Position numbers and translations under genes: made by a program
In this document: positions 1,241-11,416 of the stretch, in pieces
How the letters are laid out: each line of letters opens with the position of its first letter
Position numbering within the stretch: position 1 is the stretch's first letter
Source: Clostridiales bacterium
Lineage (GTDB): Bacteria; Bacillota; Clostridia; Oscillospirales; Acutalibacteraceae
Direction of reading: 5' to 3'
Assembly: GCA_022793315.1 (NCBI GenBank)
Contig: JAAWCO010000088.1
Location: 1-35,916, forward strand
DNA length: 35,916 nt
The notes under the pieces: model-generated
What the model was told of the DNA's origin: nothing
What the model saw: the letters and a program-made list of their open reading frames with translations, nothing else
Database searches by the model: none

Positions 1241-1440
1241 CCCTCTGCTCCTTTCTGTCCAGCCAGCGCACCAAAGCAGCGAAAAAATCCAGAAGGAAAA
1301 CAAGGCCGCAGCAACACGGCTGTCCCCGGCAGACGCTGGCCCACCGGTATCCTCCGCTTGGCTGAGACTTTCCGTTCCCTGCCCTCTTTCGGCCCTTTTG
1401 GAGGTGTGTTGGCTGTCATCTTTCTCACGGAATTCACCAC
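1237..1440 (-). CDS. Small hypothetical ORF between pyrD and the phosphatase gene
   Basis: 67-aa ORF overlapping the pyrD stop and ATGA-coupled to the phosphatase start; no recognised family. Confidence 0.3.
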   Translation of the reverse strand: MVNSVRKMTANTPPKGPKEGRERKVSAKRRIPVGQRLPGTAVLLRPCFPSGFFRCFGALAGQKGAEG

Positions 1441-2351
1441 TTTTTCAGCGTACCGGTCAATTCGCTGATACTCTTCATCCCGTTCTGCTCCGCATAACGT
1501 TCCAGTCCCTCGATGATGCGGGGCATGGCCATCGGGTCACGGAAATTGGCGGTTCCCACCTGAACGGCGGAAGCGCCTGCAATCATCATTTCCGCTGCAT
1601 CCTCCCAGGTGGAGACACCGCCGATTCCGATCAAAGGAAGCGATACCCGCTGATAAACCTCCTGCACCATACGGACAGCCACTGGAAAAACCGCCGGCCC
1701 GGACAGCCCGCCGGTATTGTTGTGAAGAACTGGGCGTCTGGTACGCAGATCAATCCGCATACCGGTCAGGGTATTGATCAGCGAAAGCACGTCTGCCCCA
1801 GCGGCCTCCGCTGCCGCTGCCATATCACCGATACTGGTGACATTGGGCGTCAGCTTGACGATCAGCGGCTTGCAGCAGCGGCGGCGTACCTCTGCCGTGA
1901 CCTGCTCCACGCTCTGGCAGGAGGTTCCAAAGCTGGCACCGCCCTCTTTCACATTGGGGCAGGAAATATTGAGCTCCACCATATGGACGGCAGAGTCCTC
2001 CAGCCTTTCCGCCATGGCGCAATACTCCTCCAGTGTGCTGCCCGCTATGTTGGCAATCACCACCGTGTCCTGCTGAAGCAGCCAGGGAAGATGAATGGAA
2101 AGAAACGCCTCCACACCGGGATTCTGTAATCCCACGCTGTTGAGCATTCCCGCAGGAGTCTCCGCAATGCGGGAGGGTGGGTTTCCCGCCCGTTCCTTCA
2201 AGGTCGTCCCCTTGCAGGAAATGCCACCCAGCAGAGAAACCGGATAAAATTCGTTGTATTCCATCCCGTAGCCAAAGGTGCCGGAAGCGGCGATCACGGG
2301 ATTTTTCAGCTCTACACCGGCGACGGTCACGCGCAGATCACTCACTCCCAC
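1434..2351 (-). CDS. pyrD: Dihydroorotate dehydrogenase B, catalytic subunit
   Basis: FGYGMEYNEFYP, GTTLKERAGNPPSRIAETPAGMLNSVGLQNPG, ELNISCPNVKEGG. Confidence 0.95.
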   Translation of the reverse strand: MGVSDLRVTVAGVELKNPVIAASGTFGYGMEYNEFYPVSLLGGISCKGTTLKERAGNPPSRIAETPAGMLNSVGLQNPGVEAFLSIHLPWLLQQDTVVIANIAGSTLEEYCAMAERLEDSAVHMVELNISCPNVKEGGASFGTSCQSVEQVTAEVRRRCCKPLIVKLTPNVTSIGDMAAAAEAAGADVLSLINTLTGMRIDLRTRRPVLHNNTGGLSGPAVFPVAVRMVQEVYQRVSLPLIGIGGVSTWEDAAEMMIAGASAVQVGTANFRDPMAMPRIIEGLERYAEQNGMKSISELTGTLKKW

Positions 2352-3118
2352 ACCACCTCCTTTGCCGGAAAAACAGGGCCGTTAAGACAAACCCGCTGCA
2401 TTCGTTCCTCTCCCGACTCCTCCCGAATCATACAGGCACAGCCGATACAGGCTCCCACACCGCAGCCCATCCGTTCCTCCAGAGAAACGTAGCAGTCGCT
2501 CCCGCAGGCAGCGGCCAGCTCCGCTACCCTCTTCATCATCGGCCGGGGGCCGCAGGTGTACACCACATCACCGGAATGGGAGGACAGCTGCTCCTCCAGC
2601 ACCTGCGTGGTAAAACCGTGATATCCGGCGGAACCGTCGTCAGTACACAGAAGCACCCGTGCGCCGGCGGCGGTGAAATCGTCCCCCAGAATCGCTGCGG
2701 AGGACGAGCGGAACCCGGCAATCACGACAGCGTTTGTCCCATAATGCCGCGCCAGCGGCAGCAGAGGAGGCGTACCGATTCCACCGCCCACCAGCACCGC
2801 TTTTTGAGAGGGCTCAAGCAGGGGAAAACCATGTCCCAGCGGCCCAATCAGATCCAGCGTTTCTCCCCTCTGTCTGTCCGCCAACCAGGCAGTTCCCTTT
2901 CCTCTCACCTCAAAGACCAGGCGGAGAACGCCCAGTGTCGGGTCAAACCCGCACAGAGAAATGGGCCGCCGGAGAAGATATTCCCCACACAATATTCCCA
3001 CAAACTGACCCGCAGCCGCAGCCGAAGCCATTCGGGGGGCGGAAACGGTGCAGTTCCAGATACCGGGCGCCATTTTGCTCATACCAAGAATGCGGGCATG
3101 CTCCTGTGTATAACGCAT
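2342..3118 (-). CDS. pyrK: Dihydroorotate dehydrogenase B, electron transfer subunit
   Basis: LLRRPISLCGFD, VGGGIGTPPLLPLA, C-terminal 2Fe-2S cluster MGCGVGACIGCAC. Confidence 0.95.
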   Translation of the reverse strand: MRYTQEHARILGMSKMAPGIWNCTVSAPRMASAAAAGQFVGILCGEYLLRRPISLCGFDPTLGVLRLVFEVRGKGTAWLADRQRGETLDLIGPLGHGFPLLEPSQKAVLVGGGIGTPPLLPLARHYGTNAVVIAGFRSSSAAILGDDFTAAGARVLLCTDDGSAGYHGFTTQVLEEQLSSHSGDVVYTCGPRPMMKRVAELAAACGSDCYVSLEERMGCGVGACIGCACMIREESGEERMQRVCLNGPVFPAKEVVWE

Positions 3119-3130
3119 CGTTGTATCACC

Positions 3131-6100
3131 TCAGATTCCGGTAATATCCAGCAACTCCATGTCGGCCATGGTCTTTTTCATCGCCAGACACTTCAGCATC
3201 GCGTTGGCGGTGTCAATGGAGGTGAAGACCGGGATGGCTCTTTCAATCGCCATCCGCCGCATCCGGACGCTGGCCAGCCGGGGATCGCGCCCATGGGCGT
3301 CGGTGGAGAGAATATAATCAATTTTTCCGCTTTCGAGAAGATCGACAATATTGGGATGCTCCTCATGCATCTTCCGAACGGCGGAGGCGGGAATCATCTC
3401 CCGGTTCAGCTTGTTGGCCGTACCAGCAGTGGCATACAGGGAGAAGCCCATCTGGGCAAAGCGGTCCGCAATAACCATCGCCTCCGGCTTGTCGGAATCC
3501 CGCACCGTGATCAGAACACCGCCGCTCTTTTTCATCTGATAGCCGGCGCCAGCCAGCCCCTTGAGCAGCGCCTCGTCAAAGGCTTTAGCCAGTCCCAGCA
3601 CCTCGCCCGTAGACTTCATTTCCGGTCCGAGCTGCACATCCAGATCCCGCAGCTTTTCAAAGGAGAAAACTGGCACCTTAACCGCTACAATATCCCGTTC
3701 AGGGTACAGGCCGGTGCCAAAGCCCATGTCCTTCAGCGTCTCGCCGAGCATGCAGCGGGTCGCCAGCTCCACCATCGGGATATTGGTCACCTTGCTGATA
3801 TACGGAACCGTGCGGGATGAGCGGGGATTGACCTCAATCACATAAACGGTATCCTGATAAACCACATATTGGATATTGACCAGCCCCACCACCTTCAGCG
3901 CCCGGGCCAGCCGCCCAGTATAGGTCACGATGGTATCCCGGACCTTCTGGCTCAGCGTCTGAGCAGGATAGACTGAAATGGAATCGCCCGAATGGACGCC
4001 CGCCCGCTCCACATGCTCCATAATGCCGGGAATGAGATAATCATCACCGTCACAGATGGCGTCTACCTCTACTTCGCAGCCCATCAGATATTTATCAATC
4101 AGCACCGGGTTCTCCAGCTTCTGTGCGGTGATAATCGCCATATATTCGGTCACGTCGCTGTCGTCATAAGCAATGATCATGTTCTGTCCGCCCAGCACAT
4201 AGGAGGGACGCAGCAGCACCGGATAACCCAGACGACGGGCCACCTCCAGCGCTTCGGCAGCAGTGAAAACCGTATCGCCCTTCGGACGGGGAATCCCGCA
4301 CTGCTCCAGCAGCGCGTCGAAGCGCTCCCGGTCCTCCGCCGCGTCAATGCTGTCGGCCGGAGTACCCAGAATCCGCACACCCCGTTTTTCCAGATGCTTG
4401 GTCAGCTTAATAGCGGTCTGACCGCCGAACTGCACCACCACCGCTTCCGGCCTTTCGGTCTCCAGCACACTGTCCACGTCCTCCGGCGTCAGAGGGTCGA
4501 AGTACAGCCGGTCGGAGGTATCAAAATCGGTGGACACCGTTTCCGGATTGTTATTGGCGATAATCGCCTCATACCCCAGCTTTTTCAGCGTCCGGACGCA
4601 GTGCACAGAGCAGTAATCAAACTCTATGCCCTGTCCGATCCGGATGGGGCCGGAACCGAAGACAATGATCCGCTTTTTGCCCGAATTCAACTCCTGATTA
4701 TAAAGCTCCGCTTCATTCTCCTCATCCCAGGAGGAGTAGAAATACGGGGTCTCCGCATGGAACTCCGCCGCACAGGTGTCCACCATTTTATAGCTGGCGC
4801 TCTTTTTTACCGGCGGAGACTGATGCGAGAGCGCGGTAATCGTCCTGTCCAAAAAACCGAGACGCTTGGCCTGCATATAAATTTCCGGAGTAAGGGTCTC
4901 CTCCGTCAGCACCTTTTCCATCGCTGCCAGACGGTTCAGCTTGGATAAAAACCAGCGGTCAATCCTGGTCATTTCAAAGATTTCATCCGCCGTCATGATT
5001 TTCCGTTTCAGGGCGGTATAAATGGCAAAGATACGCTCATCGTCCATACGGCCGATAATTTCCCGGATTTCCTGATCGTTCTTTTCCTCCACACGGGGCA
5101 GATTGGGTGTATCAATGCCCAACTCGATGGAGCGGATCGCCTTCATAAAGGCGATTTCAAAGCCCGGACCGATCGACATCACCTCACCGGTTGCCTTCAT
5201 CTGTGTACCCAGATGGCGGTCGGCGTAAACAAATTTGTCGAATGGCCATTTAGGAAACTTAATGACACAATAATCCACCGCCGGTTCATTGCAGGCATAG
5301 GTTTTTCCGGTCACGGCATTGATAATTTCATCCAGCCGGTAGCCAATGGCAATCTTGCACGCTACCTTGGCGATGGGATAGCCGGTCGCCTTGGAGGCCA
5401 GCGCAGAGGAGCGGGAGACGCGGGGGTTGACTTCAATCACGGCGTATTCCAGACTGTCGGGCTTGAGGGCAAACTGCACATTGCAGCCTCCCTCCACTCC
5501 GAGAGCGGACACAATGTTGAGAGCAGCGGCACGCATCATGCGGAATTCGTAGGCGGTCAGGGTCTGGGCAGGAGCCACTACAATAGAATCGCCCGTGTGA
5601 ACGCCGACAGGATCGACGTTTTCCATTGAGCACACATCAATACAGTTGCCTGCCCCGTCCCGGATCACCTCAAATTCGATCTCTTTCCAGCCGGCCACAC
5701 TTTTTTCAATCAACACCTGATGGATCAGAGAGGCGCGCAGCCCGCCCGTACAGATTTCCCTCATCTCCTCATCCGAATGGACAAAGCCGCCGCCGGTGCC
5801 GCCCAGCGTATAGGCCGGGCGCACCACTACCGGATACTCAATCTCATGAGCAAAAGCAATCGCGTCCTCCACCGATTCCACCACTCTGGAAGGAATGCAG
5901 GGCTCGCCGATGGAGAGCATCGTATCCTTAAATGCCTGGCGATCCTCCGCCTTGCGGATGGTGTCGGGATTCACCCCCAGCAGTTTGATGCCCCGCGAGG
6001 TCAGAAAATCACCCTCCGACAGCTCCATTCCAATATTCAGACCGGTCTGCCCGCCCATGTTGGCCAGCACACTGTCCGGCTTTTCGATATCAATAATCCT

Positions 6101-6325
6101 CTGAATGACCTCTACGGTCAGGGGCTCAATATAAATCTTATCCGCCATGGTTTTGTCGGTCATGATGGTGGCCGGGTTGGAGTTGACCAGTACCACCTCC
6201 AGCCCCTCCTCCTTCAGGGCGCGGCACGCCTGTGTACCCGCATAGTCAAACTCGGCGGCCTGTCCGATCACAATCGGACCGGAGCCAATCATAAGAACCT
6301 TGTGGACATCTGTACGTTTTGGCAT
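3131..6325 (-). CDS. carB: Carbamoyl-phosphate synthase large subunit
   Basis: 1064 aa, duplicated ATP-grasp synthetase halves (KVLMIGSGPIVIGQAAEFDY..., RIIVFGSGPIRIGQGIEFDY...), C-terminal MGS-like domain. Confidence 0.97.
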   Translation of the reverse strand: MPKRTDVHKVLMIGSGPIVIGQAAEFDYAGTQACRALKEEGLEVVLVNSNPATIMTDKTMADKIYIEPLTVEVIQRIIDIEKPDSVLANMGGQTGLNIGMELSEGDFLTSRGIKLLGVNPDTIRKAEDRQAFKDTMLSIGEPCIPSRVVESVEDAIAFAHEIEYPVVVRPAYTLGGTGGGFVHSDEEMREICTGGLRASLIHQVLIEKSVAGWKEIEFEVIRDGAGNCIDVCSMENVDPVGVHTGDSIVVAPAQTLTAYEFRMMRAAALNIVSALGVEGGCNVQFALKPDSLEYAVIEVNPRVSRSSALASKATGYPIAKVACKIAIGYRLDEIINAVTGKTYACNEPAVDYCVIKFPKWPFDKFVYADRHLGTQMKATGEVMSIGPGFEIAFMKAIRSIELGIDTPNLPRVEEKNDQEIREIIGRMDDERIFAIYTALKRKIMTADEIFEMTRIDRWFLSKLNRLAAMEKVLTEETLTPEIYMQAKRLGFLDRTITALSHQSPPVKKSASYKMVDTCAAEFHAETPYFYSSWDEENEAELYNQELNSGKKRIIVFGSGPIRIGQGIEFDYCSVHCVRTLKKLGYEAIIANNNPETVSTDFDTSDRLYFDPLTPEDVDSVLETERPEAVVVQFGGQTAIKLTKHLEKRGVRILGTPADSIDAAEDRERFDALLEQCGIPRPKGDTVFTAAEALEVARRLGYPVLLRPSYVLGGQNMIIAYDDSDVTEYMAIITAQKLENPVLIDKYLMGCEVEVDAICDGDDYLIPGIMEHVERAGVHSGDSISVYPAQTLSQKVRDTIVTYTGRLARALKVVGLVNIQYVVYQDTVYVIEVNPRSSRTVPYISKVTNIPMVELATRCMLGETLKDMGFGTGLYPERDIVAVKVPVFSFEKLRDLDVQLGPEMKSTGEVLGLAKAFDEALLKGLAGAGYQMKKSGGVLITVRDSDKPEAMVIADRFAQMGFSLYATAGTANKLNREMIPASAVRKMHEEHPNIVDLLESGKIDYILSTDAHGRDPRLASVRMRRMAIERAIPVFTSIDTANAMLKCLAMKKTMADMELLDITGI

Positions 6326-6361: not shown

Positions 6362-7447
6362 TCAGGCCCGGTTCGCCTCAATCAGCGAGACAAATTCGTC
6401 AAATATCCATGCGGTATCCTGATAACCGTTGCCGTCAGACGGTTCAAACTGTACCGTGAAGACCGGACAGTCCCGGTAGCGGATCCCCTCTACTGTACCA
6501 TCGTTGACATTGTGCAGGAACACATCCATCCTTTGGGCGTCCAGACTCTCCTCCTCCACGGTATAGCCGTGATTCTGCTCGGTCACCATCACACGGCCGC
6601 TGCGGCTGTCGCGTACCGGCTGATTGCTTCCCCGATGGCCCACCGGCAGCTTGACAATCGAACCCCCGGCCGCCACGGCCATCAGCTGGTGACCCAGTCC
6701 CCATCCGAATACCGGCCGGCCACTGGCGGCCAGCCCCTTAATAATCTCCACTATTTCCGGGTTATCCCAGGGATCCCCGGGGCCATCGGAAAGCACGATG
6801 CCGTCGGGATGAGAAGCCAGCAGCTCCTTCGCGGAAGTATGGGCCGGATAGAGGGTACAGGAACAGCCTCGCGTCAGAAAATATTCCAGGATCGAACGGC
6901 GGAAGCCATAATCCGGAATGACGATTTCATAGCGGGAATTTTCGGCGGCATAGCGTTTCGGCGCCTCAATGGTGATCGCACCGACCGCCGGCGGCACCCG
7001 ATAGGCCTTTGCCTGCCGGAGCAGCTCCTCACGATTGTCGAGAGAGGGAGCAATCACGCCATTCATCACACCATGGTCCCGGATATGGCGGGTGAGAGCA
7101 CGTGTATCAATGCCGCAAAGCCCCACGATATTCTGCTGCCGAAGATATTCATCCAGTGTAACAAACTCATGGGCATCCGTGGGTTCTACACACCATTCGC
7201 GCACAATATATCCGCTGGCCACCAGCCGGGATTCACTAACAGGATCCACCCCACGATTACCGATCAGCGGATAGGTCTGCACCACAATCTGACCGGAATA
7301 GGTGGGGTCCATCAGCAGATCCTGATAGGTGGTCATATCGGTGTTGAACACCACCTCGCCAAAGGCGGTACCTCCGGCTCCCATGGAATATCCCTGATAC
7401 TCAGTCCCATCCTCCAGCAACAGGTATGCCGGCTTTATCTTTTCCAT
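6362..7447 (-). CDS. carA: Carbamoyl-phosphate synthase small subunit with degenerate glutaminase triad
   Basis: CarA N-domain (AYLLLEDGTEYQGYSMG, DTRALTRHIRDHG) plus class I GATase fold (LSDGPGDP, FGWGLGHQ, EQNHGY). Cys->Gly250, His->Glu335 and Glu->Ser337 at the catalytic positions. Confidence 0.93.
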   Translation of the reverse strand: MEKIKPAYLLLEDGTEYQGYSMGAGGTAFGEVVFNTDMTTYQDLLMDPTYSGQIVVQTYPLIGNRGVDPVSESRLVASGYIVREWCVEPTDAHEFVTLDEYLRQQNIVGLCGIDTRALTRHIRDHGVMNGVIAPSLDNREELLRQAKAYRVPPAVGAITIEAPKRYAAENSRYEIVIPDYGFRRSILEYFLTRGCSCTLYPAHTSAKELLASHPDGIVLSDGPGDPWDNPEIVEIIKGLAASGRPVFGWGLGHQLMAVAAGGSIVKLPVGHRGSNQPVRDSRSGRVMVTEQNHGYTVEEESLDAQRMDVFLHNVNDGTVEGIRYRDCPVFTVQFEPSDGNGYQDTAWIFDEFVSLIEANRA

Positions 7448-7516: not shown

Positions 7517-8464
7517 CTATCTCACCGAAGCGAGAGCTTCCTTCATGCGCAGGGCCTCCCGCCGGGCCGCCCCGGCAAAATCTTCAGGGGGACAGCCCTC
7601 CTTTTGCCACGCGCAGAGGAGCGCACGGGAGGAATTCACCACTGCCCCCATTCCATCCGAATCGAATGCACCAGCGACATCGGAGGCTCCCCCTCCCTGT
7701 GCACCGTAGCCGGGCACCAGAAAAAAGGTGTGCGGCAGCACCCGCCGCAGCTCGGTCAGCTGCTCCGGCCAGGTCGCCCCCACCACGGCTCCCACGCCGG
7801 AGTAGCCATATTTCCCGGGCAATTGCTCCCCCCATGTTTCGCACAGGGCGCCCATTCGCCGGTATATGGTTTCGCCGCTCTCCAGCCGCAGGTCCTGAAG
7901 CTCACCCGACGAAGGATTGGAGGTCTTTACCAGAACAAACAAACCCCTGTCGTGCCGGCGGCACACCTCCAGCAGGGGACGTATCCCATCCATTCCCAGA
8001 TAGCCGTTGACCGTCAGCGCATCGCCGCCAAACGCTTCGCAGGCCTTGTCCGCCACCATCGTTTCCCCCAGATGGGCGGCGGCATAAGCCTCCATCGTGG
8101 AGCCGATGTCGTTTCTCTTTCCATCGGTGATGACGAAAAGTCCCTTTGCATGGGCATATGCAATCGTTTCACACAGAGCCCGCATACCCGGCCATCCAAA
8201 CAGCTCATAGTAGGCAGCCTGAGGCTTAACAGCCGGAACAATATCGCAAAGAGCGTCAATCAATTCCTGATTGAAACGCAGAATCGCCGCCGCCGCTCCC
8301 TCCAGCGTTTCGCCCCATTCCCGAAAGGCCTCTTGTTTTATGTACTCCGGCAGATATTCCAGCCGGGGGTCCAGTCCCGCCACGGTGGGATTGTCCTTTT
8401 TCCGTATGGCCTCCATCAATCTGTCCAGCGCCATCTGTCTGCCATCCTTTCTTTTCCCCATCAA
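7517..8464 (-). CDS. pyrF: Orotidine-5'-phosphate decarboxylase (long type)
   Basis: PTVAGLDPRLEYLPEY, DGKRNDIGSTMEAYA, VNGYLGMDGIRPLLE, VVGATWPEQL. Confidence 0.93.
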   Translation of the reverse strand: MMGKRKDGRQMALDRLMEAIRKKDNPTVAGLDPRLEYLPEYIKQEAFREWGETLEGAAAAILRFNQELIDALCDIVPAVKPQAAYYELFGWPGMRALCETIAYAHAKGLFVITDGKRNDIGSTMEAYAAAHLGETMVADKACEAFGGDALTVNGYLGMDGIRPLLEVCRRHDRGLFVLVKTSNPSSGELQDLRLESGETIYRRMGALCETWGEQLPGKYGYSGVGAVVGATWPEQLTELRRVLPHTFFLVPGYGAQGGGASDVAGAFDSDGMGAVVNSSRALLCAWQKEGCPPEDFAGAARREALRMKEALASVR

Positions 8465-8470
8465 CAGTTA

Positions 8471-9748
8471 TTAATCGGTATAAACCAGCTGTCCTTCCAG
8501 CAGAGTAGCCTTCACCCTTCCGTAAAGCTTCATGCCTTTAAAGGGACAGTTTTGAGATTTCCCATGCAGACGGCCGGGCTCCACCGTCCACGGCTCATCA
8601 GGGTCAAACAAAACCAGATCCGCCGGTGCTCCCCTTTGCAGCGAACCACCGGGAATCCCCAATAACTCAGCCGGAGAGGACGACATAAGGCGGATCAGGC
8701 GGGCTAGTGTCAGACAGCCGGTGCGCACCAGAAAGGTAATACCGACAGCCAGAGAGGTCTCCATGCCCACCGAACCGTTTGGCGCCCTTAAAAAATCCGC
8801 CTTGTCCTCCAGAGTATGCGGCGCATGGTCGGTGGCGATGGCGGAAAGCGTTCCGTCGCAAAGCCCCTCGATCACTGCTTCTACATCCTCAGGGGTCCGA
8901 AGCGGAGGATTCATACGGTAGTCGGCATCCCGCCTTCTCAGCAGTTCGTCGGTCAGAGAAAAATAATGGGGGGCGGTCTCTCCTGTCACCGGCACGCCGC
9001 GCCGCCGCGCATCGCGAAGCAGGGCGACACTTCCCCTGGTGCTCACATGGCAGATATGGACTGGACAGTTAACAGCCGCCGCCAGTGCAATCTCCCGCGC
9101 CGTGGCGGTTTCCTCTGCGGCGGGATGCAGGCCGGGAACACCAAGGAGTCGGGACACCTCTCCCTCATTCATAATCCCTCCGCGGGTCAGGGACAGCTCC
9201 TCACAATGGGACAAAACCGGCAGACCGGCCGCCGCAGCCCGACGCATGGCATCCATCATCCGGCCCGCCGTGGAAACCGGCCGGCCGTCATCGGAAAGGG
9301 CTACTGCGCCGCCGTTTTTCAGCTGCTCAAAATCCGTCAGTTCCTCCCCGGCCAGGGAACGTGTAATCGCCGCCACGGGATACACCCGGGCGGACGCTTT
9401 TTTGGCTTTTTCAAGAATCTCACGCAAAATTTCCGGGGAATCACAAGCAGGAGAGGTGTTGGGCATACAGGCCAGAGAGGTCACCCCTCCGGCAGCCGCT
9501 GCACAACAGCCGGAGAGGATATCTTCCTTTTCGGTCTGCCCCGGGTCGCGCAGATGAACATGCATATCCACAAGACCAGGCGCACAGCAAAGACCCTGTG
9601 CCTCCAGAATTCTCTTGTCCTCTGCCGGAAATGGGCCGCCGACCGCTTCCACCCGCCCATCAATCACCAAAAGGTCGTTTGGCTCAGAGGAAATCGTCTC
9701 CTGCTGAGGGTCGATGATCACAGCTCCCCGAATGACCAGCTTGTCCAT
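8471..9748 (-). CDS. pyrC: Dihydroorotase
   Basis: APGLVDMHVHLRDPGQTEKEDI, SHCEE, HICHVST, IATDHAPH. Confidence 0.96.
   Translation of the reverse strand: MDKLVIRGAVIIDPQQETISSEPNDLLVIDGRVEAVGGPFPAEDKRILEAQGLCCAPGLVDMHVHLRDPGQTEKEDILSGCCAAAAGGVTSLACMPNTSPACDSPEILREILEKAKKASARVYPVAAITRSLAGEELTDFEQLKNGGAVALSDDGRPVSTAGRMMDAMRRAAAAGLPVLSHCEELSLTRGGIMNEGEVSRLLGVPGLHPAAEETATAREIALAAAVNCPVHICHVSTRGSVALLRDARRRGVPVTGETAPHYFSLTDELLRRRDADYRMNPPLRTPEDVEAVIEGLCDGTLSAIATDHAPHTLEDKADFLRAPNGSVGMETSLAVGITFLVRTGCLTLARLIRLMSSSPAELLGIPGGSLQRGAPADLVLFDPDEPWTVEPGRLHGKSQNCPFKGMKLYGRVKATLLEGQLVYTD

Positions 9749-10072: not shown

Positions 10073-11416
<1,344 letters not shown>

Follow-up and report, generated by a model that had tools for sequence, protein, structure and literature searches.

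The glutamine-dependent (class II) carbamoyl-phosphate synthase (CPS) of Escherichia coli consists of two separate subunits, CarA and CarB, and glutamine is given as the physiological nitrogen donor in a 2018 review. E. coli CarB can use ammonia, but only at high concentration, and the ammonia concentrations needed by the E. coli enzyme have been called likely physiologically irrelevant (PMC6245113). In the ammonia-dependent vertebrate CPS I, the glutamine amidotransferase (GATase)-like domain is inactive, in human CPS1 through replacement of the catalytic Cys by Ser294 (PMC4655335). A folded CarA without its nucleophile has also been made in the laboratory, as in the E. coli C269S mutant (structure 1c30), and ammonia-using synthetases without a glutaminase are known from the single-domain NAD synthetases, which occur in many bacteria and whose single-domain form is most likely ancestral (PMC3376133). 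In the open-access literature, to which our search was confined, with subscription papers outside it, we found no description of a natural bacterial CarA that is glutaminase-dead or missing; absence from that literature is no proof of novelty.

Here, we describe a pyrimidine operon with such a CarA on a stretch of 35,916 nucleotides from a Clostridiales bacterium of the gut, referred to below as the window, in which the genes follow the order pyrC-pyrF-carA-carB-pyrK-pyrD. The features used in the text are these:

1434 to 2351, minus strand: pyrD, dihydroorotate dehydrogenase (NF005574)
2342 to 3118, minus strand: pyrK, dihydroorotate dehydrogenase electron-transfer subunit (best model, NF000799, below its cut-off; PF10418 above cut-off)
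3131 to 6325, minus strand: carB, synthase subunit, with all checked catalytic residues in both ATP-grasp domains (profile matches, residue check)
5501 to 5566, minus strand: codons for CarB residues 254 to 275 (E. coli numbering), including R265, changed relative to the CarBs of live CarAs (alignment)
6362 to 7447, minus strand: carA, predicted glutaminase-dead CPS small subunit, 361 amino acids (profile matches, AlphaFold, Foldseek)
6422 to 6424, minus strand: Tyr342 codon, in place of Pro (E. coli P360; alignment); the same Pro-to-Tyr change occurs in the Syntrophomonas-like family f121
6437 to 6439, minus strand: Ser337 codon TCT, in place of the catalytic Glu (E. coli E355; alignment)
6443 to 6445, minus strand: Glu335 codon GAA, in place of the catalytic His (E. 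coli H353; alignment)
6698 to 6700, minus strand: Gly250 codon GGA, at the nucleophile position (E. coli C269; alignment to E. coli CarA)
6701 to 6703, minus strand: Trp249 codon, beside the nucleophile position (E. coli I268), common to the genomes G001, G002 and Candidatus Avimonas
7517 to 8464, minus strand: pyrF, orotidine-5'-phosphate decarboxylase (TIGR02127)
8471 to 9748, minus strand: pyrC, dihydroorotase (TIGR00857)
10085 to 11416, plus strand: gdhA, NADP-specific glutamate dehydrogenase (NF006929, 799 bits), divergent from pyrC

The carA frame is full length, starts with ATG and contains no internal stops. Its product scores above the equivalog cut-offs of NF009475 (378 bits) and TIGR01368 (360 bits), and it belongs to the CarA family by virtue of PF00988 and PF00117 matches above their curated cut-offs and an adjacent carB. 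The AlphaFold model (mean pLDDT, 92.5) is best matched in Foldseek by E. coli CarA (1a9x_B; TM, 0.91), the C269S mutant (1c30_B; TM, 0.91) and human CPS1 (5dou; TM, 0.84), and the predicted protein keeps the CarA fold. The Cys-His-Glu triad of class I amidotransferases is nevertheless absent: the alignment places G250, E335 and S337 at the positions of C269, H353 and E355. A preliminary description had claimed as much, namely, that the entire triad is missing from a full-length, in-frame CarA in an otherwise intact pyr operon with a normal CarB, and the alignment, the gene order and the catalytic residues checked in CarB bear it out. It had also listed other near-invariant positions as altered. 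Here, K202 (R183), N204 (S185) and N240 (D221) are indeed changed, as are S47 (T49), I268 (W249) and P360 (Y342); the replacement of NHP by NQP, on the other hand, is ordinary, with Q in 24 of 41 live CarAs. Q273, N311, H312 and G313 are unchanged. Judged from these residues, a CarA of this type cannot hydrolyze glutamine by the known mechanism. The window CarB, in turn, is normal at all 23 catalytic positions checked and keeps the effector-site residues K954, T974, T977 and K993, so that the pair combines an inactivated glutaminase with an intact synthase subunit, the sequence-level hallmark of an ammonia-dependent CPS.

The locus thus resembles E. coli CarAB in its two separate subunits, in the fold of CarA and in the checked catalytic and effector-site residues of CarB and differs from it in the triad, in P360 of CarA and in residues 254 to 275 of CarB. 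With vertebrate CPS I it shares an inactive GATase domain retained in an otherwise working CPS and, as we infer, the need for external ammonia. It differs in that carA and carB are separate genes serving pyrimidine synthesis instead of encoding a single fused polypeptide and in that, as regards the N-acetylglutamate activation of CPS I, the checked effector-site residues are E. coli-like; moreover, bacterial glutaminase-dead (here, dead) CarAs have lost the whole triad, mostly with Gly for Cys, and are of multiple, independent origin. Unlike the laboratory-made C269 mutants, they are natural and selected and also lack the His and the Glu.

The G/E/S replacement is conserved in a clade, being present also in the congeners G002 (88% identical) and G001 (81%), in Candidatus Avimonas faecium and in G452, five genomes in all. 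In pairs among these five CarAs, identity is 88 to 100% over 32 positions at or near the former active site (94 to 100% in pairs that include the window CarA) versus 65 to 87% elsewhere. Among the three congeners, the dN/dS of the dead CarA is 0.06 to 0.11, ratios that are rough because synonymous sites are near saturation, and the marks of a pseudogene, relaxed selection or frame damage, are absent. The fraction of changed nonsynonymous sites is 0.074, 0.118 and 0.140 for the dead CarA versus 0.136, 0.165 and 0.178 for an intact CarA of the same genomes; purifying selection on the dead CarA is stronger than on the intact one. Because the new motif is conserved in the window clade, it argues for a positive role over slow decay. 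A genus-wide loss of glutaminases is ruled out, since the second CarA copy, GuaA, PyrG, HisH and a TrpG-like protein, the remaining class I amidotransferases in the three congeners, keep C..H.E.

The intact CarA of the window genome (C79, L053) was found by the genome search that the preliminary description had proposed, whose interpretation had missed this copy; the organism is therefore not wholly ammonia-dependent. The gene lies in a cluster of the order gltB (C-terminal part)-glnA-ANTAR regulator-carA-carB::dapF-dapL, which is found also in G002 and in which the names gltB and ANTAR are our own assignments from sequence, with no NCBIfam match at 1e-20. Here, a GltB C-terminal-like domain, a glutamine synthetase and an ANTAR-like regulator stand immediately upstream of the intact carA-carB (L053:652-4513), possibly forming a nitrogen-regulated, glutamine-type CPS cluster. 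In the sampled order, 8 CarAs of pyr operons are dead versus 3 live, and 14 nitrogen- or dap-linked CarAs are live versus 2 dead (Fisher p 0.003, for counts that ignore relatedness). CarB and DapF (diaminopimelate epimerase) form one continuous open reading frame of about 1,350 amino acids in 11 loci of the order (L053:4458-8558, L055, L057, L033, L037, L039, L066, L067, L069, L070 and L071), and the L053 fusion matches the equivalog models of both proteins. A lysine riboswitch and a T-box leader were seen near intact-CarA clusters (L055:15713-15888 and L057:583-834). At the pyr operon, an Rfam search of the window at gathering score found no riboswitch or other regulator. In each of the three congeners, gdhA points away from pyrC, and the gene is very conserved among them (dN/dS, 0.025 to 0.057).

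Dead CarAs are not confined to this clade. A pattern for CarA without Cys at position 269 matched at least 120 contigs of the genome collection, and 80 loci were read among the matches listed. The pattern fixes residues 270 to 273 and most of 289 to 296 and excludes codons beginning with T; therefore, the fixed positions are uninformative, and replacements by Ser (TCN), Tyr, Phe and Trp are undercounted. With T-initial codons thus excluded, position 269 is Gly in 83 of 91 aligned dead CarAs among the matches listed, and H353 and E355 are replaced by many different residues. Pocket residues outside the triad are mostly kept (N311 in 82/91, G313 in 68/91, Q310 in 88/91 and H312 in 88/91); S47, N240 and K202 are relaxed across the set, and P360 is among the most relaxed positions. 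When the class and the phylum were sampled broadly, a match turned up in 16 of 391 and in 18 of 399 genomes, respectively, one of the phylum matches (in G580) looking unlike CarA. The dead label changes 21 times on the CarA tree, at least 8 of these changes being forced by well-supported branches, and 21 times on the CarB tree (FastTree), with at least 17 forced. On these trees, glutaminase loss in bacterial CarA is polyphyletic, having arisen many times independently.

Of the 50 genomes examined that have a dead CarA (among the matches listed), 37 lack a live one. Many of the 50 are MAGs and may be incomplete; however, incompleteness is not an easy explanation for six isolates without live CarA (Allobacillus halotolerans, Aliibacillus thermotolerans, Hydrogenoanaerobacterium saccharovorans An564, Sporosarcina jiandibaonis, Edaphobacillus lindanitolerans and Kroppenstedtia guangzhouensis) or for the single-contig genomes G509 and G751, which likewise have a dead CarA and no live one. 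MAG names can mislead, as with two contigs labeled Alistipes (L112 and L123), whose CarAs have Asp at the Cys position but group with clostridial CarAs on the CarA tree; these contigs are probably mis-binned. In family f121, whose label of Syntrophomonas-like rests on a motif common to named Syntrophomonas loci, 11 of 12 sampled genomes have a G/D/E CarA with the motif QFDPE[GS][YF].G[YF]S, located in a pyr operon wherever the context was read (6 genomes). Six of these 11 genomes also have an intact second CarA, and 5 do not; Tyr at position 360 is common to this family and the window clade. A Pelotomaculum CarA (L195) has lost the Cys alone. In A. thermotolerans (L209) and K. guangzhouensis (L203), both CarA copies lack the Cys, and in each genome one copy retains His353 and Glu355, which suggests that the Cys is lost first.

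Some relatives have no CarA at all. Among 60 genomes sampled around that of the window (genus, family and order), 10 encode a full-length or nearly full CarB without a CarA, and a PF00988 search of these 10 gave no match even at E ≤ 10. In eight of them, pyrC is followed by carB in the pyr operon (and then by pyrK-pyrD where the contig extends far enough), with carA missing from its place (L317 to L323 and L326); pyrF and pyrE-like genes follow pyrD in some. The CarA-less CarBs are identical to E. coli CarB at 23 of 23 checked catalytic residues and retain the gates C232, A251 and A314. R265 is replaced by N or L in all except one, a second CarB of G055, which keeps R, and the 253 to 275 segment around it is likewise changed. 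On the CarB tree, the CarA-less state requires three changes or more. A second type of CarA-less CarB (L325, L327 and L328), located outside the pyr operon, is 68 to 70% mutually identical in the distantly related genomes G046, G015 and G774 and was possibly spread by horizontal transfer. By these comparisons, the CarA glutaminase in these lineages was present, was inactivated and was sometimes deleted, a history that sets CPS apart from the single-domain NAD synthetases. They also qualify the earlier suggestion that the dead CarA is a retained structural or regulatory subunit and not a product of decay: decay is excluded, but relatives live without CarA, which is therefore not needed as a scaffold, and its retention in the window clade needs another reason. 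CarA as an obligatory scaffold is thus weakened as an explanation.

CarB catalytic residues are conserved alongside dead CarAs, and the changes in CarB lie elsewhere. When CarBs beside live (n = 35) and dead (n = 71) CarAs were compared for entropy, the twelve 12-residue segments of largest gain in the whole protein all started at residues 253 to 264, phylogeny not being corrected for, and Q262 was the most changed position beside dead CarAs. R265 is invariant with live CarA and replaced in 11 of 69 cases with dead CarA (Fisher p 0.015, which ignores phylogeny). The 253 to 275 segment presumably contacts CarA, a placement taken from E. coli structures and mutants, and we take R265 of CarB and P360/H361 of CarA to be part of the ammonia-tunnel wall. 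Perforating the CPS tunnel wall reportedly uncouples glutamine from synthesis (Kim and Raushel in 2004).

Taken together, we think it likely, on sequence grounds, that the pyr operon encodes an ammonia-using CPS with a repurposed, non-catalytic CarA. The proposal of the preliminary description, a bacterial NH3-dependent CPS with a catalytically dead GATase subunit, is largely supported, the triad loss being common to a clade and under purifying selection; it overlooked how widespread and polyphyletic the loss is and that some relatives have dispensed with CarA. CarB, which keeps both phosphorylation sites and the carbamate tunnel, would make carbamoyl phosphate from NH3, bicarbonate and two ATP; CarA would still be folded, presumably still docked on CarB, and kept by selection while hydrolyzing no glutamine. 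The remodeled site (G250, W249, E335, S337 and Y342) would most simply be part of an ammonia entry path or else belong to a stabilizing or regulatory subunit. All 20 genomes checked have PyrB, and none of these 20 has a carbamate kinase (ArcC) above cut-off, for which reason we reject this enzyme as another source of carbamoyl phosphate there; the compound is therefore needed, with CarB its evident source, and, as there is no glutaminase, free ammonia would be the evident nitrogen source. The case for ammonia as the donor is drawn from the genomes whose sole CarA is dead and from those without CarA. High ammonia levels are typical of gut contents, of syntrophic digesters and of alkaline or ureolytic habitats, in keeping with the hosts in which dead CarAs were seen. 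Since the window genome also holds a glutamine-using CarA-CarB in the GltB-GlnA-ANTAR cluster, the two CPSs of the genus look like an ammonia-rich/ammonia-poor pair, with the NADP-dependent glutamate dehydrogenase beside the ammonia form. A broader scheme, tentative and in its entirety rather less probable than not, would be a route taken repeatedly by bacterial CPSs from live CarA through dead, remodeled CarA to no CarA, in which the old pocket becomes a dedicated ammonium/ammonia entry port, opened by Gly, with the catalytic His giving way to an acidic residue, which is Glu in the window clade and Asp in the Syntrophomonas-like family, and the tunnel-wall Pro360 giving way to Tyr, and in which species with two CPSs switch between the ammonia form (with glutamate dehydrogenase) and the glutamine form (with GS-GOGAT and the ANTAR regulator).

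An ammonia-using CarB could also be paired with a dead CarA that is mainly a regulator, binding glutamine or another ligand unhydrolyzed and tuning CarB to nitrogen status. The wide retention of N311, G313, Q310 and H312 and, in the window clade, a remodeled site better conserved than other parts of the protein are in keeping with this, but the surroundings of the glutamine pocket change (S47 to T, N240 to D, K202 to R and I268 to W), three of these positions being relaxed across the dead set, and some relatives drop CarA entirely, so that we consider such a role unlikely. All three congeners, as well as G451 and G452, have an intact CarA, and that of the nitrogen cluster might conceivably supply both CarBs in trans and leave the pyr-operon CarA a spare or competitor. 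We regard this as very improbable, given the dead-CarA genomes with no live copy (37/50 among the matches listed), the identity of only about 45% between the two CarAs of the window genome and the segment around R265, which is changed in the CarB of the dead pair and unchanged in that of the live pair. It is also highly doubtful that ammonia is drawn from glutamine by another glutaminase or by a different nucleophile in the remodeled site: a working site would show the kind of conservation that the new motif, QFEPSDGNGYQD, has in the window clade, but Gly, the usual residue at the nucleophile position, offers no side chain, the residues at 353 and 355 vary between lineages, and no glutaminase partner is seen in the operon. 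We know of no glutaminase partner of such a kind. Finally, that the gene is a pseudogene in decay, an assembly error or an isolated bad allele is ruled out for practical purposes. Nothing was found in favor of this, and only the MAG origin of the window gives reason to consider it; against it stand identical residues in independently assembled genomes and in different genera, losses of this kind in isolates, the full-length open frames and purifying selection.

Many bacteria thus probably draw on free ammonia to make pyrimidines, contrary to the prevailing assumption of a glutamine source; the dead-CarA genes of many lineages, those of isolates among them, contradict the glutamine-donor view, and the family models used in public annotation label these proteins as glutamine hydrolyzing. 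Bacterial CPSs whose GATase is live, dead or gone are natural replicates that make the retention of the dead domain in vertebrate CPS I testable. Metabolic models of gut and syntrophic bacteria are affected as well, since their pyrimidine and arginine synthesis would depend on ammonia.
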